The notes under the pieces were generated by a model. It was not told where the DNA came from. It ran no database searches and saw only the letters and a list, made by a program, of their open reading frames with translations. A DNA stretch of 39,978 bases from Alphaproteobacteria bacterium HGW-Alphaproteobacteria-6 (GTDB lineage: Bacteria; Pseudomonadota; Alphaproteobacteria; Rhodobacterales; Rhodobacteraceae): assembly GCA_002841115.1 (NCBI GenBank), contig PHEC01000008.1, forward strand, positions 1 through 39,978, given 5' to 3'. A program made the position numbers and the translations under genes. Shown here in pieces: positions 21,791-39,978 of the stretch (its first letter is position 1; each line of letters starts with the position of its first letter).

Positions 21791-21816
21791 GCGGACCGGT
21801 CCGATAGCGGCGGCGT

Positions 21817-22413: not shown

Positions 22414-22637
22414 CGGTAACAGCCCTTCAAGCCGGTTCACGATCCGGTGCGCCAGACTATTACCGGCGCCGCCACGCCATGGCAATTCGCCAGGACAAGG
22501 GATGCGAATCCAGCCGCTTGGCGCGGGAACGCGGACGTGCGGGGGCGTGCATTGTCAAATCCGCCGATCGACCTGACATCTGAATCAGGGCCGGCGGGCC
22601 GCACGCCTCCGGCCTGATGGACGAAAGGAGGACCATC

Positions 22638-22949
22638 ATGTTCAAACGTCTCTTCACCGCCGCCATTCTCTTCGGTCTGGCCGGAACCGCCCCGCCGGCG
22701 GCCCATGCCGAAACCTTCTGCGGCCCGCGCGAATCGATCGTCGAGCGGCTGGAGGAAACCTATGCCGAGGCGCTTTCGGCGCTTGGCTATCAATCCGACA
22801 CCCAGGTCGTCGAGGTCTGGTCGTCGAAAAAGACCGGATCCTGGACCATGCTGATGACCCGTGCCGATGGCGTCAGCTGCGTCGTGGCCAGCGGATCGGG
22901 CTGGAGCCAGGAATTCATGACCCGGATGATGAGCGGCATTCAGGGCTGA
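22638..22949 (+). CDS. small exported protein
   Basis: 103-aa protein from ATG 22638 with AGGAGG 7 nt upstream (22625-22630). A clear Sec signal peptide, KRLFTAAILFGLAGTAPPAAHA, with cleavage expected after AHA, leaves a mature periplasmic domain of about 79 residues. That domain has two Cys (ETFCGPRE and GVSCVVAS) that could form a disulfide. The rest is a mixed alpha/beta sequence with EVWSSKKTGSWTMLMTRADG. I recognise no named family. A weak promoter TTGTCA (22552-22557), 16 bp, TGACAT (22574-22579) lies upstream. Confidence 0.8.
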   Translation: MFKRLFTAAILFGLAGTAPPAAHAETFCGPRESIVERLEETYAEALSALGYQSDTQVVEVWSSKKTGSWTMLMTRADGVSCVVASGSGWSQEFMTRMMSGIQG

Positions 22950-23102
22950 CCGTTGCCGATTTCCCATGTGCCGCGGCAAACTGGCCGGGCGGGCATGATT
23001 ATTCGTGGCACACTCGCGCATCGCGGGTATTGGCGCAGATCAACAGGCCCTGGATGAAGGACCGGGTTGCACGCAAGCCGGACGTGCCGGCCCGGATTGC
23101 GG

Positions 23103-24206: not shown

Positions 24207-24238
24207 CTGCCAACCAGCGAATTCAGGGAGAAACGCGC

Positions 24239-25633
24239 ATGACGACGGATTACATCGTCAAGGACATTGCCCTTGCCGGCTATGGCCGCAAGGAACTCGA
24301 TATCGCCGAAACCGAAATGCCGGGCCTGATGGCGCTGCGCGAGGAGTTTGGCGCAGCACAGCCGCTGAAGGGCGCCCGCATCGCCGGCAGCCTGCACATG
24401 ACGGTGCAGACCGCGGTGCTGATCGAGACGCTGACAGCGCTTGGCGCGAAGGTGCGCTGGGCCTCGTGCAACATCTTCTCGACCCAGGACCACGCCGCCG
24501 CCGCGATTGCGCAAAGCGGCGTGCCGGTCTTTGCGATCAAGGGCGAAAGCCTCGAGGATTACTGGGCCTATACCGACCGGATCTTCCAGTTCGCCGAGGG
24601 CACCTGCAACATGATCCTCGACGATGGCGGCGATGCGACGCTTTACATCCTGATGGGCGCGCGGGTCGAGGCCGGGGAAACCGACCTGATCGCGGTGCCG
24701 ACCAGTGACGAGGAAGTGTGCCTTTTCAACCAGATTCGCAAGCGCCTGGCCGAGACACCGGGCTGGTTCACCGCCCAGCGCGCGGCGATCAAGGGCGTGT
24801 CGGAGGAAACCACCACCGGCGTCCACCGGCTTTACGACCTGCACAAGAAGGGCCTTCTGCCCTTCCCGGCGATCAATGTGAACGACAGCGTCACCAAGTC
24901 GAAGTTCGACAACAAGTATGGCTGCAAGGAAAGCCTGGTTGACGGCATCCGCCGGGCCACCGACGTGATGATGGCCGGCAAGGTCGCCGTGGTCTGCGGC
25001 TACGGCGATGTCGGCAAGGGCTGTGCCGCATCGTTGCAAGGCGCCGGAGCCCGGGTGAAGGTGACCGAAGTCGACCCGATATGCGCGCTTCAGGCGGCGA
25101 TGGACGGGTTCGAGGTGATCGTGCTGGAAGACGTGGTCGACAGCGCCGACATCTTCATCACCACCACCGGCAACCGCGACGTGATCCGCATCGAGCACAT
25201 GCGGGCGATGAAGGACATGGCGATCGTCGGAAACATCGGCCATTTCGACAACGAGATCCAGGTGGCTGCCCTGAAGAACCACAAATGGACCAACGTCAAG
25301 GACCAGGTCGACCTGATCGAGATGCCCTCGGGCGCGCGGATCATCCTTCTGTCCGAAGGCCGTCTGCTGAACCTCGGCAACGCCACCGGGCACCCGTCTT
25401 TCGTGATGTCGGCTTCCTTCACCAACCAGGTTCTGGCGCAGATCGAGCTCTGGACCAAAGGCAATGACTACAAGCCCGGCGTCTACATCCTGCCCAAGCA
25501 TCTGGATGAAAAGGTCGCGCGCCTGCATCTGAAGAAGATCGGGGTGAAACTGACCGAACTCAGCCCCGATCAGGCCGAGTATATCGGCGTCGCGGTCGGT
25601 GGGCCGTTCAAGTCGGACCATTACCGCTACTGA
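24239..25633 (+). CDS. ahcY: adenosylhomocysteinase
   Basis: Hydrolyses S-adenosylhomocysteine to adenosine and homocysteine, relieving product inhibition of methyltransferases (including bacteriochlorophyll steps in phototrophs). 464 aa from ATG 24239, GGGAG 9 nt upstream, the normal length. Motifs include [32 protein letters not shown], the NAD-binding [12 protein letters not shown] and the C-terminal [17 protein letters not shown] and FKSDHYRY. In R. capsulatus ahcY lies near regA and hvrA beside the LysR gene hvrB; here hvrB is not in between. A GC-rich hairpin follows the stop. Confidence 0.98.
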
Positions 25634-25643
25634 TCCGAATGGC

Positions 25644-25672
25644 GGCGCTGCCCCCCGGGGGGGGCGGCGCCC
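25644..25672 (+). terminator. GC-rich hairpin after ahcY
   Basis: Starting 10 bp after the ahcY stop, GGCGCTGCCCCCC (25644-25656) faces GGGGGGGGCGGCGCC (25657-25671), a long near-perfect inverted repeat with essentially no spare loop. No T-tract follows, so it may stop transcription weakly, protect the 3' end or need Rho. Confidence 0.5.
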
Positions 25673-25700
25673 GACGCTGCGCTGCGGCGTAATGTCCCAG

Positions 25701-25714
25701 TTGATCCGGATCAA
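25701..25714. promoter_or_regulatory. FNR/FnrL-type box
   Basis: TTGATCCGGATCAA is a perfect match to the FNR-family consensus TTGAT-N4-ATCAA and a perfect 14-bp palindrome. It lies 88 bp before the start of the outer-membrane beta-barrel gene and 68 bp after ahcY. At the class II spacing the transcript would begin near 25749. Low-oxygen control of the barrel gene by FnrL or a Crp/Fnr relative is the natural reading. Confidence 0.7.
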
Positions 25715-25801
25715 GTCGGATACGCGCGATAGGTGATTTCCACATCCCCGGCGATCCTGCGGCAGTTGCAGGGCCCTCGACGAGGAATGGAGATCAAGGC
25801 A

Positions 25802-26767
25802 ATGACAAGAACAAGTGTTTTCAGGACCGGCGCCGCCGTGGCTGCCCTTGTCCTGAGCGGCGCGGCGGCAACACCGGTCGCGGCCGAGGGTGTGTTTGGC
25901 GGCCTCTTCGGCCCGGCGCAGCGCGGGTCTTTCGGCCCGGGCGGCTTTTCGCGCTATGTGCCGCCGGTTTCGCATCCGACGCTGAACGAAAGCCCGTTCA
26001 TCACCACCGAAATCAGGCCGATCTTTGCCTATCACAACATCCCGAACGACTTTCTGACCGACGGCGGCGACGTTCGCGTTGTCGCCCTTCAGGCCCGCTA
26101 TGCGTTCAGTGACCGCTTCGCGCTGATCGCCACGACCGACGGCTATGCCGACCTCAACTTCTCGTCGGTGCTGCCCGACGAGACCGGCTTTCTCGATATC
26201 GCGGTCGGCGCCAAATACGCGGTCTACACCAACCCCGCCAAGGGCGAGATCGTGACCGTCGGCGCGCGCTATACCGCGCCGACCGGCGATGTGACCTCGG
26301 GCGGCATCCAGCTTGCCGGCGACGGCGACGGCTATGTCGATGCCTTCGTCACCGGCGCCAAGCTTTTCGAGGGCGGCACCCAGCTTCAGGGCTCGCTTGG
26401 CCTTCAGGTCGCGGTCTCGGGCGAAAACTGGAGCTATGTCCACGCCCATCTGCACGCCGACCACGAGGTCATGCCGGGGTTCTTCCCGCTGGTCGAGGTC
26501 AACGCGATCATCCCGGTTGACGGTGGCAACCGCTTTCCCGGCCTGCCCTCGAACCTGACCGGCGCCGATCTTTTCGACATCGGCACCTCGGATCCCGATC
26601 CGATCGTGACGGTGGCCGCCGGCTTCCGCTACCGGCCGAACGCCCATTCGATCTTCGGTGTCGCCTTCGAGCAGGACCTGGTCGACAAGTCGATCGACGG
26701 CATCCCGGGGTCGAAATCCTCGGTCTTCGACTGGCGTGTCACCGCCGATCTGACCGTGCATTTCTGA
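25802..26767 (+). CDS. outer-membrane beta-barrel protein
   Basis: Predicted outer-membrane channel or transporter of 321 aa from ATG 25802 (GGAG about 9 nt upstream). A Sec signal peptide (FRTGAAVAALVLSGAAATPVAA, cleavage after VAA) is followed by alternating amphipathic strands rich in Gly and aromatics, for example VVALQARYAFSDRFALIATTDGY, FLDIAVGAKYAVY and LQGSLGLQVAVSG. It ends in a terminal aromatic, DLTVHF, the usual C-terminal Phe recognised by BamA. The overall plan is like MetA-pathway phenol-degradation-type barrels rather than OmpW. It sits behind a perfect FNR-type box, so is probably induced at low oxygen. Substrate unknown. Confidence 0.75.
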   Translation: MTRTSVFRTGAAVAALVLSGAAATPVAAEGVFGGLFGPAQRGSFGPGGFSRYVPPVSHPTLNESPFITTEIRPIFAYHNIPNDFLTDGGDVRVVALQARYAFSDRFALIATTDGYADLNFSSVLPDETGFLDIAVGAKYAVYTNPAKGEIVTVGARYTAPTGDVTSGGIQLAGDGDGYVDAFVTGAKLFEGGTQLQGSLGLQVAVSGENWSYVHAHLHADHEVMPGFFPLVEVNAIIPVDGGNRFPGLPSNLTGADLFDIGTSDPDPIVTVAAGFRYRPNAHSIFGVAFEQDLVDKSIDGIPGSKSSVFDWRVTADLTVHF

Positions 26768-26783
26768 ACCTGCACAACCGGAA

Positions 26784-26806
26784 GGGGCGCCGCGATGCGG
26801 TGCCCC
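26784..26806 (+). terminator. hairpin after the beta-barrel gene
   Basis: GGGGCGCCGC (26784-26793), loop GAT, GCGGTGCCCC (26797-26806) make a 10-bp stem with one G-U pair, 17 bp past the stop. Only a weak pyrimidine run follows (GACCTATTCC). Confidence 0.55.
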
Positions 26807-26943
26807 GACCTATTCCCGCCGCAGGCCGAGGAATCCTTTGCCATCGGCGCGATTTCCCCGCTATCCTTGCGCCCGGGCCGGCGCAATTGGCCAGGATCAA
26901 GGCCCGAACATGCGCAGCGCGCACAGGACAGGTGGAGTAACCA

Positions 26944-27285
26944 ATGGGTAAGAGAGACGAACTGATCGCCAGATATGCGGACGATCTGCGGAACAAGTGC
27001 AAGGTGACGCCGGACATGGACCTGCTGACCAAGGTCACGATCGGCTGTGGCCCTGCCATCTACAACGCGGATTCGGCCACCGTCGCGGCCGGTCAGGCGA
27101 CCGAGATCGCGACGGTCAAGAACAATTTCCTGATCAAGAAGCTGGGCCTGAAGGACGGGCCGCAGCTTGATGACGCGATCAATTCGGTGATCGAGACCTA
27201 CGGCAAGTCCGAGCGCAACAAGTATCGCGCCGTGGTCTACTACATGCTGGTCAAGCATTTCGGCAAGGAAAAGGTCTACGCCTGA
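26944..27285 (+). CDS. DUF2853 family protein
   Basis: 113-aa cytosolic protein of the DUF2853 family, function unknown. ATG 26944 follows GGTGGAG at 26931-26937. The sequence is mostly helical: KRDELIARYADDLRNKC at the start, a central NNFLIKKLGLKDGPQLDDAI and a C-terminal KYRAVVYYMLVKHFGKEKVY, the conserved family end. It stands alone: 175 bp follow the barrel gene's hairpin, and its own hairpin (27304-27333) closes it. Confidence 0.85.
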   Translation: MGKRDELIARYADDLRNKCKVTPDMDLLTKVTIGCGPAIYNADSATVAAGQATEIATVKNNFLIKKLGLKDGPQLDDAINSVIETYGKSERNKYRAVVYYMLVKHFGKEKVYA

Positions 27286-27303
27286 GGGCGATACGACCGG
27301 CAC

Positions 27304-27333
27304 CCGGACCGGGCGGCTGCCGCCTCGGTCCGG
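27304..27333 (+). terminator. hairpin after the DUF2853 gene
   Basis: CCGGACCG (27304-27311) and GGCGG (27312-27316) pair with CCGCC (27320-27324) and CGGTCCGG (27326-27333), a 13-bp stem with loop CTG and one bulged T. It begins 18 bp past the stop and is followed by TTAACG, so the T-tract is weak. Confidence 0.55.
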
Positions 27334-27382
27334 TTAACGCGACCTTTCCGTAACCGGTTGGTGTTGAAGGGAATTGTAGACA

Positions 27383-27526
27383 CTCGGCGCTTGCCCGGAC
27401 CGCAACCCCGGGCTAGGGTGCAACCAACGAGGCCAGGATGGCCGAGGCCCAGTTTCCACACGGTGCAGGGGTGCACATGGGGTGGCGAAGGGTCCCGGTC
27501 GCAAGGTCGGGGCCCTTTGTTTTTCT
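27383..27526 (+). ncRNA. candidate structured small RNA
   Basis: The 284-bp gap after the DUF2853 gene has no credible ORF but holds a series of perfect hairpins that ends in a strong terminator. Hairpins: GCCCGG/CCGGGC (27393-27398 and 27408-27413, 9-nt loop), GGCCA/TGGCC (27431-27435 and 27439-27443, loop GGA), GTGCA/TGCAC (27463-27467 and 27472-27476, loop GGGG), then the terminator. A possible -10, TAGACA (27377-27382), precedes it without a good -35. No match to tRNA, 4.5S or tmRNA signatures is visible. A processed 3' UTR of the DUF2853 transcript is the alternative; 5' end is approximate. Confidence 0.5.
27490..27526 (+). terminator. strong Rho-independent terminator
   Basis: GGGTCCCGGTC (27490-27500), GNRA loop GCAA (27501-27504) and GGTCGGGGCCC (27505-27515) form an 11-bp stem using three G-U pairs, then TTTGTTTTTCT (27516-27526). 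The T-tract is on the plus strand only, so it ends a plus-strand RNA that has no protein gene within 200 bp upstream. Confidence 0.85.
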
Positions 27527-29223: not shown

Positions 29224-30314
29224 GCCTTGGCCCCCCGCTTGCCCGATCCGATCAGCGCCGGCTGCGTCTGGTCCAGCGGCCAGCGCGGCCGCGCCGCAAG
29301 GTCCATGCCGTCGACATGGCCAAGGCGAAAGCGCTCGATCCCGGCCCAGGCGATCATCGCCGCATTGTCGGTGCACAGCGCCAGCGGCGGCGCGACAAAG
29401 CGCAGGTCCAGGTCGGCGCAGACCGCCTGCAACCCGGCGCGGATCCGGGCATTGGCGGCGACGCCGCCGGCCACCGCCAGAACCGGCGCCGCCGGAGCCA
29501 TCGCCAGATAGGCCGCCGCCGCCCGGCGCGCCTTTTGCGCCAGGACATCGGCCACCGCCTCCTGAAACCCGGCGCAGAGATCGGCACGGTCCGCCGCCGT
29601 CAACCCGCCCTTCTCGGCGACAAGGCCGTCGCGAAGCCGCAACAACGCGGTCTTCAGCCCGGAAAACGACAGATCGCAGCCCGGCCGATTCAACAGTGGC
29701 CGCGGAAAGGCAAAGCGCGCCGCGTCGCCGGCCTGCGCCGCGCGCTCGACCTCGGGACCGCCGGGTTGCGTGAGGCCCAGCAGCCGCGCGGTCTTGTCGA
29801 AGGCCTCGCCGGGCGCATCGTCGATGGTGCCGCCGAGACGGCTGAAATCCTCGGGCCCCGAGACGATCAGGAACTGGCAATGCCCGCCCGAGACCAGCAG
29901 CATCAGATAGGGAAAGGCCAGCCCGTCGGTCAGCCGCGGGGTCAGCGCGTGGCCGGCCAGATGGTTGACCCCGATCAGCGGCAGCCCGGCCCCGGCGGCA
30001 AGGCCCTTGGCGCACATCACCCCGGCCAGCACCCCGCCGATCAGCCCCGGACCCGCCGTCACCGCCACCGCATCCATCGCCCGCAGCGGCAGCCCGGCCG
30101 CCTCCAGCGCCTCCTCGACGCAAAGATCGATCCGCTCGGCATGGGCGCGCGCCGCGATCTCGGGGACCACGCCGCCGAAATCGGCATGCAGCGCGTTCTG
30201 CCCCTGCACCACCGACGACAGGATCACGGCCTCGCCGCCCCGCAGCCGCACCACCGCCGCCGCGCTGTCGTCGCAGCTGCTTTCCAGCCCCAGGATGGTG
30301 ATCGTCTCGGTCAT
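29220..30314 (-). CDS. tsaD: tRNA N6-adenosine threonylcarbamoyltransferase TsaD
   Basis: Transfers the threonylcarbamoyl group to A37 of ANN-decoding tRNAs, with TsaB and TsaE. 364 aa, Kae1/Qri7/TsaD fold: [15 protein letters not shown] at the N-terminus, [16 protein letters not shown], and the metal ligands H118 and H122 in [20 protein letters not shown] and [10 protein letters not shown] follow. First gene of the minus-strand set tsaD-gpsA-yciI-EVE, divergent from hemD across 76 bp. The tRNA-Thr(CGT) in this window (36397-36472) reads ACG and would be a substrate. Confidence 0.97.
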
Positions 30315-30368
30315 GGCCCTGCCGGTTGCCTCGGCGCAGTCCCGCAGGTAACACCGGCTGAGACGCCA

Positions 30369-30374
30369 TACAAT
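30369..30374 (+). promoter_or_regulatory. possible -10 element of hemD
   Basis: TACAAT matches the -10 consensus at 5 of 6 positions and lies 16 bp before the hemD GTG in the 76-bp tsaD-hemD divergent gap. No good -35 is found at 17 bp, and the leader would be very short. Confidence 0.25.
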
Positions 30375-30390
30375 CCCGAGGCGGCCCCCC

Positions 30391-31113
30391 GTGACCCCAT
30401 TCCGCCCGACCCTGCTTCTGACCCGGCCCGAACCGGCATCGGCGCAATTCGCCGCCGACTTCCGCGCGCGTTTCGGGGCGGAATGGTCGGTTGTCTGCTC
30501 GCCGCTGATGGCGCTCAGGCTTTTGCCCGCGCCACCGCCGCCGGACGATCTCGACGATGTGATCGTGACCTCGCAGGCCGCGGTGGTCGCCCTTGCCGGG
30601 CTGACCGCCCGGCGCGATCTGCGGGTCTGGTGCGTCGGTCCGGCAACGGCGGCGACGGCCGGTGCCGCAGGGTTCGACGCGGTCGCCGGGCCGGGCGATG
30701 CCGCCGGTCTGGCGGCCCTTGTGGCGGTCGGGCGACCGGGCGGGCGGGTCTACTATCCGCGCGGCACCAAGGTTGCCCGGGACATGGCCGCGCTGCTGCG
30801 TCCGGCCGGGATAGAGACGATCGAGGCCGTGGTCTACGATCAGCCGGCGATCGCGCCGGCGGCCACGGCGCGGCAATTGCTGGCGGGCGCCGACCCGGTG
30901 CTGCTGCCGCTCTTCTCGCCGCGCGCCGCGCAGTTGTTCCACGATGCCTTCGCCGCCCCGCGCGCCCCCTTGCGGATTGCCGCGATCAGCGCCACCGTGG
31001 CGCGCGCCGCCGAGCCGCTGATGCCGGAACGCCTGGCAGTGGCCGCGCGTCCCGATGCCGCCGCCATGCTGGACGCTCTGGCCGAGCTATTTGCCGCAAC
31101 GGACCCGGCTTGA
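30391..31113 (+). CDS. hemD: uroporphyrinogen-III synthase
   Basis: Cyclises hydroxymethylbilane to uroporphyrinogen III, the branch-point tetrapyrrole for haem, bacteriochlorophyll and cobalamin. 240 aa from GTG 30391. HemD is a divergent family; the supporting text is [34 protein letters not shown] (the S/T-rich helix start), [30 protein letters not shown] and AVVYDQPA, in the right order for the two-lobed fold. Followed by the mitofilin-like and HemY-like genes, the usual alphaproteobacterial trio. hemC is not adjacent here. Confidence 0.9.
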
Positions 31114-31209
31114 GACGGTCGCCGGCGCGGGCTAGATTGATGCGGCGGGGGTGCGACGCCGCGACCAGACTGCCCTGCGCCAATCGCCCGGCATGCGAAG
31201 GAGTTCCAG

Positions 31210-32586
31210 GTGGCACGAGCAAAGACGACCGCGACCGCCGATGCGGCGGCAGCGCAGTCGGCCGGCCCGCAGGCCGCCGCCGCCGATGATCCGGCCGCTG
31301 GCGCGACCGAGGCTGTTGCCGGTGATGCGGACAGGGCGGCACCAGAGGCCGAAGCGGCAGCCGTGATCGATGCCGATCCGGTTCCGGCGGATGCCGGGGA
31401 ATCGGATGGTGGAGAATCGGATGGTGGGGGTCCGGACGGGCTCGCCGACCCGGCGCCCGATCCTGTCGCCGACCCGGGCCCCGTGGTCGTAGCACCGCCG
31501 CGGCGCCGTGCGGGCGGTTTCTTGCCGACTGTCCTCGGTGGCGCGGTGGCCGCCGGCCTCGGCTTTGGCGCGGCAATCTATGTCCTGCCGCCATTCCTGT
31601 CGCCGCCGCAGACCGCCGGCGAACTGACAGAACTCTCCGACCAGATTGCCGCCCGCTCGGCCCGCATCGACGAGATCGGCGCCGCCGTCGCCGCCCTGCA
31701 GACCGGCAAGGCCGGCGCCGACGACCTTGCCGGCCTGACCGCGACGACCGCGGATCTTGCCGCCGGGCTGGCGGCGGCGCGCGAAGCCGTTGACAGCCTG
31801 CAAACCGGTCTGAGCGATGCGGCAGCGCGGCTGGCCAGCTTTGAAGCCCGGCTTGCGACCCTGGAAAAACGCCCGGTCGAAGGCGGCGCCGCCTCGGCGA
31901 CCGCGCTCGAGGCCTTCGGCCGCGACATGGCGGCGATGCGCGCCGAGATCGCCGCCGAACGCATCGCCCTTGATGCGGCCGAACAGCGGATCGCGGCCGC
32001 GGCGGCGGATGCGGCGGCCCGGCTGGCCTCGGTCGATGCCGAAGCCCGCAAGCTCCGGGCCGAGGCCGAGGCCGAGGCCCGGCGCGGTGCCGCCCTGGCC
32101 TCCTTGCGCCATGTTCAGGCGGCGCTGGAAAGCGGGGCGCCGATCGGTGATGCGCTGGCCGGCCTGTCGGCGGCCGGCATCGCGGTGCCGCAGGCGCTGA
32201 GCGATCAGGCGCAGGGCATTCCCAGCCTTGCCGCGCTGCGCGACGCCTTTCCCGGCGCGGCCCGTGCCGCGCTGTCCGCCGCCTTGCGGGTGCGGTCGGC
32301 CGATGCCGATACCTGGACCCGGCTTGGCGCCTTTCTGCGCAGCCAGTCGGGGGCGCGGTCGCTTGCGCCGCGGGCGGGCGACGATCCCGACGCCATCCTG
32401 TCGCGCGCCGAGGCGGCGCTGCGGCTCGGCGACCTGTCGGGGGCGATCGCCGCCATCGCCGACCTGCCGCCCGAGGCGCAGGCGCCAATGGCCGAGTGGC
32501 TGGCGCTGGCCGACCGGCGCCTTTCGGCCGCCGCGGCGATCGCCGATCTGGTCGGCGCGGTGACCGGGCAGGAGGCTTCCGAATGA
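31210..32586 (+). CDS. mitofilin-like inner-membrane protein (COG4223)
   Basis: Alphaproteobacterial relative of Mic60, thought to shape and tether intracytoplasmic or inner membranes. 458 aa from GTG 31210 with AAGGAG 6 nt upstream. An acidic, low-complexity Ala/Pro/Asp N-terminus (residues 1-98, including a duplicated ESDGG) precedes one transmembrane helix at about 104-127. A long Ala-rich coiled coil (about 135-290) and a helical C-terminal mitofilin-type domain follow. It sits between hemD and hemY-like, the conserved place for this gene, and its TGA overlaps the next ATG (32583-32586). Confidence 0.88.
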   Translation: MARAKTTATADAAAAQSAGPQAAAADDPAAGATEAVAGDADRAAPEAEAAAVIDADPVPADAGESDGGESDGGGPDGLADPAPDPVADPGPVVVAPPRRRAGGFLPTVLGGAVAAGLGFGAAIYVLPPFLSPPQTAGELTELSDQIAARSARIDEIGAAVAALQTGKAGADDLAGLTATTADLAAGLAAAREAVDSLQTGLSDAAARLASFEARLATLEKRPVEGGAASATALEAFGRDMAAMRAEIAAERIALDAAEQRIAAAAADAAARLASVDAEARKLRAEAEAEARRGAALASLRHVQAALESGAPIGDALAGLSAAGIAVPQALSDQAQGIPSLAALRDAFPGAARAALSAALRVRSADADTWTRLGAFLRSQSGARSLAPRAGDDPDAILSRAEAALRLGDLSGAIAAIADLPPEAQAPMAEWLALADRRLSAAAAIADLVGAVTGQEASE

Positions 32587-34121
32587 TCTGGTCCTTCATC
32601 AAGATTGCGCTTTTCGTCGCCGTCGTCGCGGCGCTGACCCTGGGTGCCGGGCGGCTGGCCGAAACCGGCGCCGGCATCCGCCTATCGCTGGGCAATACCG
32701 AATTTTCGCTGGGCCCGGTGCAGGCGCTGATCGCCGCGCTCGCGGTCTTCCTGGCGGTCTGGCTGGTGCTGCGCCTGATCGGGCTTGCCGTGGCGCTCTT
32801 GCGGTTCGTCAACGGCGACGAGACCGCGATCAGCCGCTATTTCGACCGAAACCGCGAACGCAAGGGCTATCAGGCACTGGCCGACGGGATGATGGCGCTG
32901 GCCTCGGGCGAGGCGCGTCTGGCCCTGTCGCAGGCGACCCGCGCCGAGCGGTTCCTGAGGCGGCCCGAACTGACCAGCCTCCTGACCGCGCAGGCGGCCG
33001 AGGCCGCCGGCGACAGCCGGCGCGCCGGCGAGGTCTACCGCCGGCTTCTGGCCGATGATCGGACGCGCTTTGTCGCGGTGCGCGGCCTGATGAGGCAGAA
33101 GCTGGCCGAGGGCGACACCGAGACCGCACTGAAACTGGCGCAAAAGGCGTTCTCGATGAAGCCGCGCCACGAAGAGGTGCAAGACACCCTGTTGCAGCTT
33201 CAGACCGCGAAGGGCGACTGGTCCGGTGCGCGGCAGGTGATCGGCGCCAAGGCGAAACAGGGTCTCTTGCCGCGCGATGTCTACCGCCGCCGCGACGCGA
33301 TCCTGGCCCTGCAGGAGGCGCGCGGCGTCTTCGACGAGGATGCCCCGATCGAGGCGCGCGAGGCGGCGATTGCCGCCAATCGCGCCTCGCCCGACCTGAT
33401 TCCCGCCGCGGTTCTGGCGGCACGAAGCTATGTCCTGGCCGGCAAGCCGAAATATGCGACCCGCATCCTGAAGAAGGCATGGGAGGCGGAACCCCACCCC
33501 GATCTCGCCGCCGCCTTCGCCGCGATCGAGCCGGCCGAGACCCCGACAGCCCGTCAAAAGCGCTTCTCGGCCTTGCTGGCGCTGCGCCCCGAGCATGACG
33601 AATCGCGGCTCTTGCGGGCCGAACTGGCAATCGCGGCCGAGGATTTTCCCGCAGCCCGCCGTGCCCTCGGCGATCTGGCCGAGCGTCACCCGACCGCCCG
33701 CGCCCTGACCATGATGGCCGCCATCGCGCGCGGCGAAGGCGACGACGATGCCACGGTGCGCGGCTGGTTGACCCGCGCCCTGACCGCGAGTCGCGGCAAG
33801 CAATGGGTCTGCGACAAATGCCATCAGATCCATGCTGACTGGACCCCGGCCTGCGGCAATTGCGGCGGTTTCGACACGCTGTCCTGGCGCGAGCCGGTTC
33901 AGGACAGCGTGCCGATGCCGAAAGGGTCGGAAATGCTGCCGCTGATCGTGGGGAAGCCTGCCACGCCGCGCCGCGCGCCCGACGCCGCCCCGCCGGACTT
34001 TGCCCCGCCCGATGCCGCCCCGGCTGACCTTGATCCGGCGGATGACCAGGCGGCGCCGCGCCGCGTCGACGGGCTGGTCGAGGCCGAAATTCTGGGAGAA
34101 GAGACTGCCGACCGCCGCTGA
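32583..34121 (+). CDS. hemY: HemY-N domain membrane protein with C-terminal zinc ribbon
   Basis: Tetratricopeptide-type membrane protein linked to haem biosynthesis (not the protoporphyrinogen oxidase also called HemY). 512 aa from ATG 32583. Two N-terminal membrane segments (about 2-22 and 40-68) lead into TPR-like helices such as RRAGEVYRRLLADDRTRFVAVRGL and ARSYVLAGKPKYATRILKKAWEA. Near residues 410-430 is a four-Cys knuckle CDKC...CGNC, then a disordered Pro/Asp/Ala tail. Last gene of hemD-mitofilin-hemY; no clear terminator is seen in the 224 bp before the island. Confidence 0.87.
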   Translation: MIWSFIKIALFVAVVAALTLGAGRLAETGAGIRLSLGNTEFSLGPVQALIAALAVFLAVWLVLRLIGLAVALLRFVNGDETAISRYFDRNRERKGYQALADGMMALASGEARLALSQATRAERFLRRPELTSLLTAQAAEAAGDSRRAGEVYRRLLADDRTRFVAVRGLMRQKLAEGDTETALKLAQKAFSMKPRHEEVQDTLLQLQTAKGDWSGARQVIGAKAKQGLLPRDVYRRRDAILALQEARGVFDEDAPIEAREAAIAANRASPDLIPAAVLAARSYVLAGKPKYATRILKKAWEAEPHPDLAAAFAAIEPAETPTARQKRFSALLALRPEHDESRLLRAELAIAAEDFPAARRALGDLAERHPTARALTMMAAIARGEGDDDATVRGWLTRALTASRGKQWVCDKCHQIHADWTPACGNCGGFDTLSWREPVQDSVPMPKGSEMLPLIVGKPATPRRAPDAAPPDFAPPDAAPADLDPADDQAAPRRVDGLVEAEILGEETADRR

Positions 34122-34252
34122 GGCGGGCGACGGACCGTGCCGGGTCGGCGGTTGCCACAGAAGGCCCCGAGGTCTTGCAACAGCCGCAGTCGGCCAAGGG
34201 CAGCCGCCGCGCCGCGCCACCCCGGCCGTCAGGGCAAGGCAGCCGCACCGAT

Positions 34253-34299
34253 CACCTTGAACGCCGAAAGCGCATTCCGCCGACCGAGCATTCAAGGTG
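34253..34299. repeat. inverted repeat in the left flank of the island
   Basis: CACCTTGAA (34253-34261) and TTCAAGGTG (34291-34299) are perfect 9-bp complements 29 bp apart, just outside the left copy of the tRNA repeat. A similar pair CTCTTGAA/TTCAAGAG (34416-34423 and 34468-34475) lies just inside. Shared CTTGAA cores could be arm-type sites or chance. Confidence 0.35.
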
Positions 34300-34345
34300 T
34301 CGGTCTGGCGTGGCAAGGCCGCTGCAGGAGCACGATGTCGGGCGG

Positions 34346-34397
34346 GGATGGTGCCGCACGAGGGATTCGAACCCCCGACCCCATCATTACGAATGAT
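34346..34397 (-). repeat. left attachment repeat: partial tRNA-Thr copy
   Basis: 52 bp identical to 36394-36445. It holds the tRNA-Thr 3' half, from the anticodon loop (CGT) through the T-arm, the acceptor 3' strand and CCA. The 5' half of the tRNA is missing, so it cannot encode a working tRNA. Confidence 0.88.
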
Positions 34398-34487
34398 CAG
34401 GTCTAAGGACTAAACCTCTTGAAATATAACGGTTTTCTTTCAGGCCAGTTCTCCGTTGCAAGCATCCTTCAAGAGTGCCGCCCCCGC

Positions 34488-34937
34488 TCACTTCAACTCG
34501 ACGCCCTCAATCTGGACGTACCACCTTGCAGCATCGCGCAGTCCATTCTTCTGCGCACCTGTGAACTGACGAGCTTCCGTTTTTCTCCAGACCTCCCCAT
34601 GGTATGGGTTGTCCGGTAGCGCTGGATCATCCTTGATCGGATCATATCCGACCATCAAGTCGAGAGCACGAATCTCCGCTGCCGAAAAGGCTACCGCGCC
34701 AGGAAACTCGTCAGAAGTAACGTAATTCGCCGGATCGACACGATGTTTGAGCATAAGTGCCTCAACCTCGACCGACATGCCCTGCTGAGCGCCTGTTGAT
34801 TTGGCGTAGAGTGCCGACGAAATTCTGCGGCGACGCTGGCCTCCGTTGTCGTCCCACACCAGTTGATGCTCGGGAACGCGCCGGATGATCGTGTCTTCGC
34901 CGATTATTTCTGCTTCATCGTATGGTTGCACCGCCAA
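34488..34937 (-). CDS. island gene 3: uncharacterised 149-aa protein
   Basis: Third gene of the island cassette, function unknown. No ATG is available: TTG 34937 is preferred (GGGGG 9 nt upstream in the end of gene 2), with GTG 34931 the alternative. Features are IIRRVPEHQLVWDDNGGQRRRRISSALY near residues 17-44, a GMSVEVEAL stretch at about 53-61, and NPYHGEVW near 112-119. Such basic, H/D/N-containing segments recur in small accessory proteins I have seen in mobile regions, but I cannot name a family. It starts 6 bp after the gene 2 stop, so is co-translated. GC is clearly below the flanks. Confidence 0.72.
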   Translation of the reverse strand: MAVQPYDEAEIIGEDTIIRRVPEHQLVWDDNGGQRRRRISSALYAKSTGAQQGMSVEVEALMLKHRVDPANYVTSDEFPGAVAFSAAEIRALDLMVGYDPIKDDPALPDNPYHGEVWRKTEARQFTGAQKNGLRDAARWYVQIEGVELK

Positions 34938-34943
34938 AGATTT

Positions 34944-35450
34944 TTAGCCCCCAGCTACTTCCTGGAGTTGCACCCGCTCAGCCGCCAGAGCAGCCACCCA
35001 TTCCGCGAGTTCGGTAAAGTCGGTCTGGATTTCGATCTCGTCTTCACTGTCGTTCAGAAGGTCTGCCCGGTAGGCGACTACATCGTAAGGCCCCAAAACA
35101 TCGACTTCTATATCGAACTCGTTCCTGTGCCACTCAAGTCGCATGGTGCCATTGGGCATTGGCACCAGTTGAGGTGCTGGAAGCGAGCGGATGTAGAGCC
35201 TCTCGATCAGGTTAGCCGCAAATTGGGCGCAGGTGAAGGAGACCGGGACGCCAGCATAGCCGTCCCAGCCCCTACGGAGTGACGTCAACACGTCAAACTG
35301 CTTCTCAAGCTCATTCACCCAAGCAGACCTCGGGTGTGTCACGCGAACGCGCGTTCCCCGTGCGCTCAACGACGAAACCCCGTCTGTGATCGCTCGGTAG
35401 TTGGGGATTTCGTCCTGGAATGCAGTCGTGAAGTCGGGTTGTGCGTTCAT
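34944..35450 (-). CDS. island gene 2: WDGY-motif protein
   Basis: 168-aa protein, second in the cassette, function unknown. ATG 35450 overlaps the stop of gene 1 (ATGA), with GGGGGAAAG as ribosome site. The middle reads RRGWDGYAGVPVS (WDGY at residues 62-65), a pattern found in small uncharacterised proteins. Then follow alternating strands APQLVPMPNGTMRLEWHRNEFDIEVDVLG and a strongly acidic segment NDSEDEIEIQTDF. This suggests an alpha/beta fold with a strand-rich core. Tight coupling to the TIGR04255 gene argues that the products act together. Confidence 0.78.
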   Translation of the reverse strand: MNAQPDFTTAFQDEIPNYRAITDGVSSLSARGTRVRVTHPRSAWVNELEKQFDVLTSLRRGWDGYAGVPVSFTCAQFAANLIERLYIRSLPAPQLVPMPNGTMRLEWHRNEFDIEVDVLGPYDVVAYRADLLNDSEDEIEIQTDFTELAEWVAALAAERVQLQEVAGG

Positions 35451-36250
35451 TCGACTTTCCCCCATTTCCTCTGAGCCTCCCTGGTCGTAATCTCGCCAAA
35501 GCGGGTCACGATGGCATCCCTTCCGGCTGCGAGAAACGCCATGGCCGCATCAATACTCGTCCCGGCTGGCTTACCTTTGAATGTCAGCGACAGACGAAAG
35601 GCGCGCTGCTTTCCGTCTGCGGTCAGGACCGACTGGATCTGATGACTGAGACGAGCGAACGGTTTTGCATCTGCACCTTTAATCACTTCGTTGAAGCTCG
35701 TGTTCAGTGCCTCAACTTCGAACGCCCCGCCATTCCACAATTTGAACCAATCCCCCGCATCGGAGAAGCTCTCGACCGGGATGATATTGATGTAAGCGAC
35801 TTCGGCCTGGTTGATGTCCATTCGATATGCAAAATCGGATTCGAAGTGAGTACCAAGCTTCTTGACACTTGCTTCGAAAGTCTTCGCGAGCCCCTCGAAA
35901 CGCGGATATGGCCGAGTATTCGGTTCCCGCCGCCAGTTTGTTAGGAAGCGGTCAGGTTGAAACTGGATTAGATGATTTTCGTCGTCAGACAGGAACCAAA
36001 GGCGACTACCAACTGGAAATGCACCAATTTGGATGCGCGGTCCGACCTGAGCGCTGACGCCGCCAAATGTCTCGAACTGCGGCTCGAGAGCAGGCAACTC
36101 CTGAACCTTCGGAAACTCCGCCCGGAACAGGTCCCAAACCTTCATGGAGTGGACTGACGCGTAGCCTGGCACAGGCGCGAACTGCACGCCAAGGACCACC
36201 TCGTCCAGAGGCGGGTTGGTGAAGTCCGGCAGGTGGTCAGGTCGGCGCAT
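35447..36250 (-). CDS. TIGR04255 family protein
   Basis: First gene of the island cassette. 267 aa from ATG 36250, with AGAGGG 6 nt upstream. The N-terminus LPDFTNPPLDEVVLGVQF (residues 7-24) is the hallmark of TIGR04255, a sporadically distributed family of about 250-270 aa with no established activity. Later segments GPRIQIGAFPVGSRLWFLSDD and DFAYRMDINQAEVAYINIIP fit the family's beta-rich plan. No nuclease or NTPase motif is visible. Sporadic distribution plus a tRNA-borne location is typical of cargo for defence or inter-bacterial conflict, but that is inference. Confidence 0.88.
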   Translation of the reverse strand: MRRPDHLPDFTNPPLDEVVLGVQFAPVPGYASVHSMKVWDLFRAEFPKVQELPALEPQFETFGGVSAQVGPRIQIGAFPVGSRLWFLSDDENHLIQFQPDRFLTNWRREPNTRPYPRFEGLAKTFEASVKKLGTHFESDFAYRMDINQAEVAYINIIPVESFSDAGDWFKLWNGGAFEVEALNTSFNEVIKGADAKPFARLSHQIQSVLTADGKQRAFRLSLTFKGKPAGTSIDAAMAFLAAGRDAIVTRFGEITTREAQRKWGKVE

Positions 36251-36393
36251 GAAATCCCTCTCGGAATCTTTGTAACCAAGGCAGATTCGTGAAGCCAGCG
36301 ATAACTGCGGCTTATAACGAAAAATGCTTGACTCTCCCTTCCATGTGAGTCCGCGAACCCGACTCGACAATGCCGTCCCGCTTCACATGTTGA

Positions 36394-36445
36394 GGATGGT
36401 GCCGCACGAGGGATTCGAACCCCCGACCCCATCATTACGAATGAT
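36394..36445 (-). repeat. right attachment repeat within intact tRNA-Thr
   Basis: 52 bp identical to 34346-34397. It covers the 3' half of the complete tRNA-Thr gene plus 3 bp of its 3' flank. Identity breaks at the anticodon stem on one side and 3 bp after CCA on the other, so crossover must lie between. Confidence 0.88.
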
Positions 36446-36472
36446 GTGCTCTACCAACTGAGCTAGTGCGGC
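36397..36472 (-). tRNA. tRNA-Thr(CGT)
   Basis: Minus-strand tRNA of 76 nt including encoded CCA (36397-36399). Acceptor GCCGCAC (36472-36466) pairs with GTGCGGC (36407-36401), discriminator A. The D-arm has AGCTCAGTTGGTAGAGC, the anticodon stem CATCA/TGATG encloses loop TTCGTAA, so the anticodon is CGT (reads ACG, Thr), and the T-loop is GGTTCGAATCC. It is the integration target of the adjacent island, and its own transcription runs straight into the island genes. Confidence 0.95.
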
Positions 36473-36485
36473 CTGCCGCGCACCG

Positions 36486-36512
36486 TTTAGACGCTTGCAA
36501 AGACTCGCACAA
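36486..36512 (-). promoter_or_regulatory. candidate tRNA-Thr promoter
   Basis: On the minus strand TTGTGC (36507-36512), 15 bp, TCTAAA (36486-36491) lie 13 bp before the tRNA 5' end. The spacer is short, but position and hexamers fit. Read-through from here would also transcribe the three island genes. Confidence 0.45.
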
Positions 36513-36528
36513 GGGGCGGATTGTGCGA
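36505..36528. repeat. inverted repeat over the tRNA-Thr promoter
   Basis: TCGCACAA (36505-36512) and TTGTGCGA (36521-36528) are perfect 8-bp complements, 8 bp apart. It could be the terminator hairpin of the upstream minus-strand SGNH gene (followed by GTCTTT) and it covers the presumed -35 of the tRNA. Confidence 0.45.
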
Positions 36529-36574
36529 CAGGCCGGGTTTGCCGGCGTCGCCCGCGCCGCGCTCGGGGCCGGTG

Positions 36575-37342
36575 TCAGGGTGCGACGGGGCGGCCGCCCG
36601 GGTCCGTGCCGCCCTGATTTGGGCACGGGATGCCGGCGGATCGCGCGGCGACCGATAGGATCGGCGCAAGGACCAGCGCCGCCTCGGCCTCGGGCTTCGG
36701 ATGCACGCCGTCGCGCATCCGGTCCCGTCCGGCGCCCAGCCAGCGCGCCCGCCCGTCGACCAGCCCGAGGTCAAGCGCCTCGGCCAGCCGGTGGTAATCG
36801 GCGTAGTGACGCTCCAGCAGCGGCCGCTTCAGCCTTTGCAGGCCGGTCACCGGATTGGTGGTGAAAAGCACGATGCCGATCCGGGGATTGGCGGCGCGCA
36901 GCGTGGCGACGATGGCGCCGGTGTGCTCGGCTGCGGCCTTGCGCCCGGTCCCGTCCAGCAGGTCGGCGTCGTTGATCGCGAATTCGATGATGGCAAGGTC
37001 GGGCGGCGGGCCTGCCATTGTCGCCACCGCACTGCGTCCCCAGGCCGCGTTGGCGCCGGCGCGGGTCAGTCGTTGCAGCGTGACCACCCGGCCCGAACAG
37101 GCCTGCAACGCCTCGACCAGGGCCTCGGGCCAGATGGCGTTGCGGGTCAGGCTGGTGCCGATGACGGCGATCGTCACCGGCCCGGGGGCAAGCGGCGGTC
37201 GCGCCGCAAGACGGTCGCGCGGCGGCCCGTCCGGAATGCCGGTGCTGGCCACGCCGACCAGCATCCCCGCCGCCACCGCCACCGCGCCCGCCAGCACCGC
37301 GATCCACCGTCGAACCCGGATCCGGCCGCCCCGGCCCGGCAT
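36575..37342 (-). CDS. SGNH/GDSL-type hydrolase, membrane-anchored
   Basis: Predicted extracytoplasmic esterase or glycan deacylase. 255 aa; an Arg-rich N-terminus and one hydrophobic segment (about 13-33) serve as signal anchor. Blocks of the SGNH family are in order: nucleophile S64 in AVIGTSLTRNAIWPEAL, block II-like GANAAWG, block III AINDADLL, and the Asp-His pair in RMRDGVHPKPEAEAAL. The acyltransferase gene ends 3 bp upstream, so the two are one unit, pairing an O-acetyl-adding and an ester-cleaving enzyme. Substrate is probably an exported polysaccharide. Confidence 0.87.
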   Translation of the reverse strand: MPGRGGRIRVRRWIAVLAGAVAVAAGMLVGVASTGIPDGPPRDRLAARPPLAPGPVTIAVIGTSLTRNAIWPEALVEALQACSGRVVTLQRLTRAGANAAWGRSAVATMAGPPPDLAIIEFAINDADLLDGTGRKAAAEHTGAIVATLRAANPRIGIVLFTTNPVTGLQRLKRPLLERHYADYHRLAEALDLGLVDGRARWLGAGRDRMRDGVHPKPEAEAALVLAPILSVAARSAGIPCPNQGGTDPGGRPVAP

Positions 37343-37345
37343 CGC

Positions 37346-37855
37346 TCAGGCCAGGCCCTGTTCGGCCAGCGCGCTTTCGGTCGCATCGGCGGTCAGGAAG
37401 CGGCCATAGGGCCCGACCTCGATATCCGAGCGGATGACCCGCGCCGGATTGCCGGCGACGATCGAACGCGGCGGCACCGAACGGGTCACCACCGAGCCCG
37501 CGCCGATGACGCAGTTGTCGCCGATCTCGACCCCCGGCAGGATCAGGCTGCGCCCGCCGACAAAGCAGTTGGCGCCGATCCTGGTGTGCAGATAAAGCCC
37601 GCGGGTGCGGTCATGGGTCAGGATGCGGCTGTCGAAGGCGACATAGGAATGGGGGCCGACATGGACGCCGGCCGGAAAGGTGCGATCGAACGCCGCGGAA
37701 AGCGAGAATTGTGCGGTCGGATGGATATCCATGCCCCAGACCCGCCGGTAGAGGACGCGCTTGAGGGCGACCAGCAGGTTGCGCAGCCCGCCGAGACGGT
37801 TCAGCCCGCGCTTGCGGGCCTTTTTCGTCGGCGTTGTCGCCGTCCCATCCGCCAT
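37346..37855 (-). CDS. hexapeptide-repeat acyltransferase
   Basis: Left-handed beta-helix acyltransferase, 169 aa from ATG 37855. The open frame runs much further upstream but with non-family sequence; the ribosome site at this ATG is weak, so the start is uncertain. A short basic lead (KKARKRGLNRLGGLRN) precedes hexapeptide turns such as IHPTAQFSLSAAF, GVHVGPHSYV, RIGANCFVGGRSLILPGVEIGDNCVIGAGSVVT and the end VAGNPARVIR, all characteristic of serine-acetyltransferase-like enzymes acting on sugars. It is paired with the SGNH hydrolase and divergent from the polymerase/ligase gene, so a surface-glycan role is likely. Confidence 0.87.
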   Translation of the reverse strand: MADGTATTPTKKARKRGLNRLGGLRNLLVALKRVLYRRVWGMDIHPTAQFSLSAAFDRTFPAGVHVGPHSYVAFDSRILTHDRTRGLYLHTRIGANCFVGGRSLILPGVEIGDNCVIGAGSVVTRSVPPRSIVAGNPARVIRSDIEVGPYGRFLTADATESALAEQGLA

Positions 37856-38219
37856 GCAATGCCCCGCCGTTGCGCCTTCAGCCCCGGCCTTGACCCGGCC
37901 GGCCTGTCCGGCGCCGCGATTGCCGCGCCCCTGTGGCCGACTGGATACGCCCATGCCGCAGCCCGGATCAAGCCCGATGCTTCGCAGCCGCGCGCCGGCG
38001 GGCCGGGTTTGTCCAGCCGGCGGTGACATCGGCCGGCGATTGCGCCGTTCGTGGCGCGGGGGCGGACAATCGCCGCCTTCGCGCGGGTCTGTTCGCGGTC
38101 CGGGGTGGTGGACGATACATTGGCCCCGAAGCGGCGGTTCCGGCTCGCATCCAGCGGGCAATGCCATTATAACCCACGCGGGGCCTGCCCCGTTTCGCCA
38201 GATTGCGTGAACTCCCGCC
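37856..38219. other. 364-bp intergenic region between divergent glycan genes
   Basis: No credible gene: frames here are open only because of high GC and do not resemble families. It must hold promoters for the minus-strand acyltransferase and the plus-strand ligase-like gene. A -10-like TATAAC (38168-38173) faces the latter about 47 bp before its start but lacks a clear -35. No strong repeats or hairpins stand out. Confidence 0.5.
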
Positions 38220-39978
38220 GTGACCGATGCCCGTGCCATCCCCGTTTCAGGCCAGCCCTCGGCCGTCATCGCCGCCGGCCGTGCCCTTGCCGGCCGGATT
38301 GCCCTGCCCGGGCTGGTCTGGCTTTACCTGCTGACGGTGATCCTGCCGATCGGCTTCAATGTCGGCAGCCTGGCGATGACGCTGCTGCGGCTCTTGCTGC
38401 TGATCGTGGTGGTTCCGCTGACCTTCAAGCTGCTGGCGGGGCGCTATGGCAGGCTGTTGCTGGTCGATATCCTGTTCTTTCTTCACATGGGCTGGGCGAC
38501 CGTCGCGCTGGCGGTGAACAATCCCAACCGCGTCGTCGAGAATATCGGCTCGACCGCGGTCGAGTTTCTCGGCGGCTATCTGGTGGCCCGCGCCTGCATC
38601 CGCACGCCCGAGGCCTTTGCGGCGCTGATCCGCGCGCTGCTGCTGCTGGTGGTCCTGACCCTGCCCTTCGCCATCGTCGAATCGCAAAACGGCCATGCGG
38701 TCCTGCCGGCGTTGATCGAGAAAGTGCCGGGCCTGACCTCGGTTCCACAGACGGCCATGGACAAGCGCATGGGGCTGGAGCGGGCGCAGGTGGTCTTTGC
38801 CCATCCGATCCACTACGGCATCTTCTGTTCGGTGGTGCTGTCGCTGGTCTTCGTCGGCCTCAAGGACATCATGTCGCCGGGTGCCCGGTTTCTGGGGGCC
38901 GGCGCGATCGGGCTGGCGGTGTTCCTGTCGCTTTCCAGTGGCGCGCTTCTGGCCTATCTGCTGCAACTCGGGTTGATCGTCTGGGCCTTCATCTTCCGCA
39001 AGGTCGAGAAACGCTGGTGGCTGCTCTTCGGGCTATTTGCGCTGATGTATGTGGTGATCGACCTTCTGTCGAACCGCACGCCGATCAAGGTCTTCATGAG
39101 CTATGCGACCTTCTCGGCCCATAACGCCTACTGGCGCAGCATCATCTTCGACTGGGGCATGCGCAACGTCTGGGCCAATCCGGTGTTCGGGCTTGGCCTG
39201 AACAACTGGGTGCGCCCCCACTACATGTCCAGCGGCAGCATGGACAACTTCTGGCTGGTCATGGCGGTCCGCTACGGGATTCCGGGCTTTGTGCTGATCG
39301 CGCTCGGCTATGCGGCCGGGCTGTGGCGGGTCGCCCGACGCAAGTTCGCCCCGGGCGGGGTGCTGTCGCAGATGCGGCTTGCCTGGATGATCACCTTCAT
39401 CGGTCTCAGCTTTTCGCTGTCGACGGTGCATGTCTGGACGGCGATCTATTCCTTTGTCTTCTTCCTCTTCGGGGCCGGGCTCTGGCTGGTCTATGCCGAG
39501 GATGGCGACAATGGGCAGGATGCTGCACCCGCCCCGGCCGGCGGCCGCCAGCGGCTGGCGTTCAGCCGTTCCGCCGCCGATCGCGCAGCGCGCGGCCCGC
39601 GCGCCGCCGAAGGCGCGGCACGCCGGGGGCAGGCGCACGAAGCGCCCCGCCGAATGCAGACGCAGCATGTACCCGCCCGGATCGAGGAACAGCCGCACGT
39701 CGCCCTCCTCCCCGGCGGCGGGCGCGGCGAGTTCGATCCCCATATGGTCGAGCAGCGGCGTCAGCAGGCTCGTCACGGGCGGATTGCGCGGATCGCCGAG
39801 CGCATGGACCGGCGGCCAGCTCGACAGCGCGTCGGCCAAGATCACGGCCTTGCCGCCGCCGCGCAGATGCGTGTCGATCCGTACCATGTCCTGCGGCGGC
39901 AGCGCGCGCGGGTGGGCCAGGAACAACACGGCGCCGCGCGGCACGCCGCCTTCGAGCGTGTCGACGAGGCGCAGGTCC
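38220..39978 (+). CDS. O-antigen ligase/polymerase-like membrane protein, 3' end abnormal
   Basis: Predicted inner-membrane polysaccharide ligase or polymerase (Wzy/WaaL-like). Starts at GTG 38220, the first start after an in-frame stop at 38208. About ten membrane helices run to residue 430 or so, with the large periplasmic loop containing KVFMSYATFSAHNAYW and NPVFGLGLNNWVRPHY, the conserved H-N and G-x-G-N texts of the family. The frame does not stop: from about 39570 (residue 450) it continues to the window end antisense through a different gene. True protein sequence therefore probably ends, or the assembly changes, near 39560-39570. Confidence 0.75.
   Translation, partial: MTDARAIPVSGQPSAVIAAGRALAGRIALPGLVWLYLLTVILPIGFNVGSLAMTLLRLLLLIVVVPLTFKLLAGRYGRLLLVDILFFLHMGWATVALAVNNPNRVVENIGSTAVEFLGGYLVARACIRTPEAFAALIRALLLLVVLTLPFAIVESQNGHAVLPALIEKVPGLTSVPQTAMDKRMGLERAQVVFAHPIHYGIFCSVVLSLVFVGLKDIMSPGARFLGAGAIGLAVFLSLSSGALLAYLLQLGLIVWAFIFRKVEKRWWLLFGLFALMYVVIDLLSNRTPIKVFMSYATFSAHNAYWRSIIFDWGMRNVWANPVFGLGLNNWVRPHYMSSGSMDNFWLVMAVRYGIPGFVLIALGYAAGLWRVARRKFAPGGVLSQMRLAWMITFIGLSFSLSTVHVWTAIYSFVFFLFGAGLWLVYAEDGDNGQDAAPAPAGGRQRLAFSRSAADRAARGPRAAEGAARRGQAHEAPRRMQTQHVPARIEEQPHVALLPGGGRGEFDPHMVEQRRQQARHGRIARIAERMDRRPARQRVGQDHGLAAAAQMRVDPYHVLRRQRARVGQEQHGAARHAAFERVDEAQV
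39570..39978 (-). CDS. fragment of a GldG-like / ABC-auxiliary protein
   Basis: On the minus strand the last 409 bp encode coherent protein: LEGGVPRGAVLFLAHPRALPP, GGGKAVILADALSSWPPVHALGDPRNPP, LLTPLLDHMGIELAAP and LRLHSAGRFVRLPPACRAFGG. This resembles the soluble domain of GldG-type proteins (ABC-transporter auxiliary component). Protein-like sequence ends abruptly near 39570, where the frame passes into the antisense of the ligase-like gene. The 5' end lies outside the window. Both ends are thus missing. It is a true fragment or a foreign piece joined by assembly. Confidence 0.5.

Follow-up and report, generated by a model that had tools for sequence, protein, structure and literature searches.

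The closest described counterparts of the locus reported here are cis-mobilizable elements (CIMEs), which the excerpts of PMC5704250 present as decayed ICEs or IMEs that join in tandem accretion. Like a CIME in those excerpts, a 2,048-bp cassette in the 39,978-nt stretch of alphaproteobacterial DNA analysed here (the whole stretch is called the window) keeps both attachment sites, attL and attR, and carries cargo only, with no integration or transfer genes; unlike a CIME as described there, it recurs as a ~2.05-kb unit in four genomes and is linked by an attachment arm to phage-like elements. As regards an origin from an ICE or IME, the relatives of its arm or its site carry phage-type genes, Pfam recognised no conjugation family among 18 distinct proteins of the islands in genomes G007 and G020, and the stretches read contained no integrase-bearing element in tandem with any of the four cassette copies. 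Judged by its sequence, the cassette comes closest to a CIME, though one with ties to phage-like elements. With classical tRNA islands, as outlined in the excerpts on Islander (PMC4383910), it shares a regenerated tRNA and a displaced tRNA fragment that mark its ends, and it differs from them in having no integrase: of the hallmarks of a tyrosine-recombinase tRNA island we found the repeats and, in genome G017, the empty site, and no integrase of its own. Phage and satellite defence hotspots, in the excerpts of PMC9122126, resemble it in combining variable cargo with a fixed place in small phage-related elements, whereas the cassette itself contains neither phage nor satellite genes; none of the integrase, replication or capsid-hijack genes of a P4/PICI-like satellite was recognised in it. 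A further parallel is tRNA-dependent lysogeny, which the excerpts of Guerrero-Bustamante and Hatfull (2024, PMC10865867) describe as tested in mycobacteriophages, and from which the cassette departs in leaving an intact tRNA and a perfect 52-nt repeat.

The single tRNA of the window, identified with ARAGORN, is an intact tRNA-Thr(CGT) on the minus strand (36397..36472), which serves as the attachment gene. A perfect direct repeat of 52 nt, beginning 4 nt ahead of the anticodon loop and ending 3 nt after the CCA of this tRNA, is present as a tRNA-proximal copy (36394..36445, minus strand) that covers the anticodon stem/loop to the CCA plus 3 nt, and as a distal copy (34346..34397, minus strand) that represents the displaced tRNA 3' half, with a start-to-start spacing of 2,048 bp. 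A chance origin of such a repeat is not credible (BLAST E 3e-25). The interior (34398-36393) has a GC content of 0.555, compared with 0.727 at 30000-34345 and 0.694 at 36473-39978, and in a scan of 2-kb stretches at 50-base steps the lowest-GC stretches of the window fell in the cassette (window mean 0.683, SD 0.037). Elsewhere in the window, a wider stretch at 20501-27500 has a GC content slightly below its surroundings (0.61-0.68 in 1-kb steps). Genes for HemY (PF07219, E 3.6e-21) and a GDSL lipase (PF13472) lie outside the two cassette ends.

Three minus-strand genes, overlapping or closely spaced, fill the interior. Gene 1 (35447..36250, minus strand) encodes a 267-aa TIGR04255 family protein (NCBIfam E 1.3e-25), the score of 90.7 bits lying well above the family cut-off of 30. 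Gene 2 (34944..35450, minus strand), which overlaps gene 1 by 4 nt, encodes a 168-aa protein that resembles the C-terminal part of the candidate PDC-M32A with partial coverage of the profile (PADLOC, E 9.5e-10); we refer to it as GWDG, a label coined here after its conserved motif. Gene 3 (34488..34937, minus strand; ~149 aa from a TTG or a nearby GTG start) is conserved across the aligned relatives and had no family match in Pfam, NCBIfam, PADLOC or PHROGs, and searches of the same four collections recognised no recombinase among the three proteins. The earlier note had described a 52-bp perfect repeat of the tRNA-Thr 3' half plus 3 bp, about 2 kb of lower-GC DNA between the copies, an intact tRNA beside it, an intact cargo and no recombinase, and all of this is borne out; the end it placed at 36445 is correct for the repeat, but the full tRNA runs on to 36472.

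As the note had anticipated, an empty site and other cargo at the same kind of site are both found in relatives. No cargo match was detected in 21 other genomes of the genus, one of which, G007, matches the distal arm, and 16 of the 19 tRNA-Thr loci of the genus that were examined adjoin hemY. In G017 a single tRNA-Thr(CGT) copy lies beside hemY in the window's orientation; the hemY-side flank is ~74% identical and the far side is not alignable, so that the relative with the empty site is a fairly distant one, as opposed to a sibling strain. The cargo is sporadic on a wider scale, gene 3 being found in 2 of 394 genomes sampled from the family, 5/390 from the order, 4/385 from the class and 2/398 from the phylum (counts that include its own genome each time and come from overlapping samples); the family-sample matches were G000 and G286 only, in a sample that, judging by handle numbers, also included G042, G138, G141 and G234. 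The empty site, the low GC, this patchy distribution and the attachment arm described below all contradict a tRNA fragment duplication that has no connection with mobile DNA and encloses ordinary genes, an explanation that the absence of a recombinase alone would favour and that we find scarcely believable.

A pattern-based scan for gene 1 across 84,980 species genomes, which finds close relatives only, returned six loci, five of which (L005-L009) carry all three genes in order; L010 has gene 1 only within the stretch examined. At three of the five the trio directly follows a tRNA-Thr(CGT) with a displaced 3' half: L005 in a Rhodobacter MAG, L007 in a Paracoccaceae MAG and L008 in a Kiloniellaceae MAG (Rhodospirillales), all of them draft metagenome bins. 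The repeat spacing, 2,048 bp in the window, is 2,049, 2,063 and 2,061 bp in L005, L007 and L008, respectively. L007 and L008 have perfect repeats as well (45 and 48 nt, respectively), each drawn from its own, different tRNA. A general rule by which each distal repeat is a copy of the tRNA beside it fails for L005, whose distal half agrees with its own tRNA at 34/45 nt and with the window tRNA at 41/45. Alignable homology starts ~30 nt past the CCA and ends at the distal repeat, with little beyond; the noncoding left end upstream of gene 1, placed by these alignments at 36251..36393 (minus strand), can be aligned in L005-L008 and more weakly in L009 and in the viral record L038. Between the window and L005, L007 and L008 the cargo proteins are 70-96% identical, compared with 65%, 62% and 33%, respectively, for the adjoining HemY. 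Because the cargo proteins are so much closer than their HemY neighbours, these comparisons indicate that the cassette moved horizontally.

All four cassette copies occupy a hemY-tRNA-Thr locus, a regularity that would be expected if DNA carrying the tRNA and hemY flanks had entered the cell and RecA had swapped the locus, with no site-specific step after the original insertion; a 2-kb unit would also fit small transfer particles, such as the gene transfer agents of the Rhodobacterales. Such homologous recombination is nevertheless difficult to reconcile with flanking HemY proteins that are 33-65% identical beside a cargo at 70-96%, and with the orientation of the tRNA-cassette block relative to hemY, which in the window and L007 is opposite to that in L005 and L008, and we regard it as improbable.

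Several islands at this kind of site bring a tRNA of their own. In G007, G020 and G010 the hemY-side tRNA-Thr(CGT) is interrupted within its anticodon loop and has not been restored, with a complete tRNA-Thr(CGT) past the break; the far 3' half is present in G007 and G020, and the G010 contig ends before it. This combination of a split tRNA-Thr(CGT) and a full copy carried by the island fits tRNA-dependent lysogeny as the excerpts of PMC10865867 portray it. A cut tRNA-Thr copy is also found ~90 nt from an intact one in G001. Such tRNA-Thr(CGT) genes, broken at the anticodon loop and left unrepaired, are found at L055, L056, L057 and L058, with an intact tRNA-Thr(CGT) nearby or in the island.

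The islands of G007, G042 and G138 end in tRNA-Thr, cargo, arm and 3' half, the order that would be expected if the cassette had formed the right-hand terminus of a bigger, phage-like island whose other genes, including the integrase, had been deleted, in which case no 2-kb unit would have moved. L005 speaks for such a remnant most directly: since its tRNA is identical at 75 of 76 positions to the island-borne tRNAs of G042 and G138, L005 resembles one end of an island that replaces the tRNA, with TIGR04255 cargo where those two have a SocAB pair, and its distal half fits its own tRNA poorly, as given above. The same locus is thus the best hint of cargo exchange and the best support for a remnant. 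Decay of this kind would not, however, predict a nearly equal length in four genomes, nor the genes that adjoin both ends, which are ordinary chromosomal ones in the window (HemY and the GDSL lipase) and in L008 (HemY and an enoyl-CoA hydratase), and HemY and an ArsR-type regulator in L007; and the three copies with perfect repeats of their own tRNA are unexpected from a tRNA-replacing island. We therefore consider a remnant unlikely. Of the two options offered in the earlier note, a minimal island moved in trans is the one we favour, and a single decayed island is less favoured, with decay possible as the origin of the cassette.

The noncoding DNA next to the distal repeat provides the link to other elements. 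The stretch of ~100 nt that separates gene 3 from the distal loop can be aligned in the window, L005, L007, L008 and G007, the last being an island with different cargo yet an alignable arm. A sequence profile of these five arms (R1), which contains no sequence beyond the anticodon loop and whose E-values are rough owing to a shortened calibration, together with its matches places the distal attachment arm (attR arm) of the window at 34398..34487 (minus strand). R1 matched 5 of 335 genomes of the family, namely the window genome and four from other genera (G042, G138, G141 and G234), and in addition the viral record L072. All five new arm sites abut a tRNA-Thr-like 3' half, even though R1 includes none of the sequence past the loop. 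Since G007 was part of the R1 training set, its close resemblance to G042 and G138 means that these two are not independent support; independent support comes from G141, G234 and L072, at ~36-38 bits each. L072 contains no complete tRNA, and the identity of its halves was read from the TGT loop. R1 had no match in the G020 island. As plain DNA, the G007 arm found only G007 in a scan of the genus (1/22) and missed the arm of the window itself, and the arm written as an exact degenerate pattern found nothing in viral contigs, where the profile did match L072. A weak inverted R1 match (L055 2848-2906, E 0.02) adjoins the cut tRNA at the opposite end of the G007 island.

The space between tRNA and arm holds different cargo in different genomes. 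In G042 and G138 a SocAB-like pair, 93-96% identical to that of G007 and with the SocB gene of G042 split over two frames, occupies the space from the tRNA-Thr(CGT) to the arm. In G007 itself the two proteins match SocA_Panacea (E 1.5e-19) and, in NCBIfam, SocB (E 7.1e-95); PanAT as a name for the pair was dropped, since NCBIfam names the second protein SocB. A pair resembling SocAB, a type VI toxin-antitoxin system (NF047746, PF13274), fills the same tRNA-Thr/arm slot in these three genomes, with cargo other than the operon of the window. In G141 the arm directly follows the tRNA with no cargo, as an empty slot, and upstream lie a GWDG-like gene (PDC-M32A, E 2.9e-4) and a very divergent TIGR04255 gene (E 1.1e-22) that the gene 1 profile built here did not recover. 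The corresponding stretch of the G141 locus (L068 4682-6538, reverse complement) comprises the divergent TIGR04255 gene, the GWDG-like gene and a third open reading frame.

The arms also contain a short repeated motif. Sites matching CTTGNAAC occur 66-79 nt from the core, as a pair 11 nt apart in four of ten right ends (L005, G007, G042 and G138) and singly in three (window, G141 and G234), and no site was found in the right ends of L007, L008 and G020. The window copy, a candidate arm-type recombinase site with the sequence CTTGCAAC (34455..34462, minus strand), lies 69 nt from the distal anticodon loop and belongs to a motif that was picked after viewing the sequences. Attachment zones, which are largely homologous to one another, contain 14 CTTGNAAC sites in 3,680 nt, compared with 16 in 179,197 nt elsewhere, for a motif chosen post hoc. 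These figures hint that the sites are candidate arm-type integrase sites.

Two of the elements with an arm encode an integrase. In G234 a tRNA-Thr(TGT) is associated with a perfect 49-nt repeat at a spacing of 5,406 bp, and in L072 a perfect 46-nt repeat is spaced at 6,305 bp, an integrase-bearing 6.3-kb unit (8805-15155) being flanked by a pair of perfect tRNA-Thr(TGT)-like 3' halves; no recognisable tRNA 5' half precedes the left one, a tandem-like geometry. Their integrases are 44-45% (G234) and 45% (L072) identical to the integrase of the G020 island, which matches PF13356 and PF00589 and belongs to an island sitting in the loop of tRNA-Thr(CGT). Next to its split tRNA, G010 carries a fragment of a G020-type integrase, the only occurrence in eight genomes searched: no such integrase was found in G007, G001 or G017, nor in any of the four genomes with the cassette (window, L005, L007 and L008; 0/4), the window genome being 87% complete with three PF00589 matches, two of them over the cut-off.

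Movement in trans is the explanation that we consider probable. The 2,048-bp unit would be a discrete, non-autonomous, att-flanked mobile cassette, recombined in trans at the anticodon loop of tRNA-Thr by a tyrosine integrase of the type that the G234 and L072 elements encode, as does the G020 island, where the arm was undetected. The integrase would recognise a short core at the loop together with the ~100-nt distal arm retained by the cassette, and the product would be an intact tRNA followed by a displaced copy of its 3' half. We favour this reading because of the near-constant length in four genomes and the distal arm held in common with integrase-bearing elements; the action of this integrase on the cassette, like a vehicle between cells, is something we infer. 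The case is weakened by the absence of a G020-type integrase from all four carrier genomes, by the location of G234 and L072 in a TGT-type and not a CGT-type tRNA-Thr sequence, by the arm searches that gave no match in G020 and, with G007 arm DNA, missed the window, and by an enrichment of arm repeats that is post hoc, drawn from homologous zones and absent from L007, L008 and G020. Moreover, the identical halves in three copies despite differing host tRNAs would need spread within species or conversion. A broader scheme can be put forward tentatively, with a good deal of doubt, in which a tRNA-Thr, in some cases island-borne, and the shared attR arm bracket a slot where one integrase family, acting in trans, exchanges recombinase-free cassettes (the TIGR04255 operon, SocAB or none), in an integron-like manner and in at least two alphaproteobacterial orders.

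The trio is not confined to tRNA-Thr. In tRNA-Leu(CAG) islands it is accompanied in G450 by a 16-nt repeat and an integrase at 18611, with gene identities as in the Marivita record L006, and in G520 by a 25-nt repeat and an integrase at 257916. It also lies beside tRNA-Glu (G698), tRNA-Met (G733) and tRNA-Ser (G286), where no repeat was found in the stretches read, the G286 contig ending near the trio, and no tRNA was found near it in the stretches read of L009, G607 and G889. The arm model had no match at any trio copy away from tRNA-Thr. Inside its tRNA-Leu island, L006 has the degraded remains of a tRNA-Thr 3' half immediately ahead of the trio (5821-5849; 25/29 nt, score 38, compared with a maximum of 22 in 60 shuffles). 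The whole trio is carried by the viral record L038, which has a terminase, and homologues of all three genes occur in order beside a mobF relaxase gene on the Mycobacterium paragordonae plasmid L047 (4983-6722). As its presence in islands, a viral record and a plasmid shows, the trio is a conserved module carried by mobile elements.

Low dN/dS ratios (0.04-0.15 for the cargo where computable, with dS saturated for several distant pairs, and 0.04-0.11 for gene 1 where defined) indicate that the cargo is under purifying selection. Searches for a function gave few leads. By sequence, nothing convincing was found among solved structures for any of the three proteins (best E 0.04), and gene 3 had no Foldseek match in the PDB at E <= 0.001. 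For gene 1, Foldseek returned three PDB chains of one Rep protein (E 5e-4 to 8e-4, TM ~0.25) and 18 viral models at E <= 0.001, led by an unnamed 202-aa protein (E 2e-8, TM 0.49/0.62), and we drew no function from either set. The phage collection gave no match to any of the three proteins, and among plasmid records gene 1 and gene 2 matched one each and gene 3 none. The operon matched no described anti-phage system, the one resemblance being that of gene 2 to part of the PDC-M32A profile. The excerpts of PMC12429752 list PDC-M32A as a candidate defence protein in a Sinorhizobium prophage. In a partial literature collection TIGR04255 was named in no paper, and no description of the three-gene cassette appeared among the matches listed.

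What the operon of TIGR04255, GWDG and the small third protein most likely does, in our view, is act against phages or competing elements, an assignment that we make with modest confidence. It is suggested by the sporadic occurrence of the operon on islands, a phage record and a plasmid, by purifying selection combined with a slot shared with a toxin-antitoxin pair, and by the resemblance of gene 2 to a candidate defence protein.

The data describe a real, recurrent, recombinase-free tRNA-Thr cassette, with movement and a defensive function as predictions. Islands that lack an integrase are easily dismissed as decay; here a ~2.05-kb unit has been kept in four genomes. If it is moved in trans, it would be a very small tRNA-targeted mobile unit and would offer a simple model for the spread of defence-like genes that have no machinery of their own. 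For the TIGR04255 family, the finding means that it becomes testable as a three-gene system.
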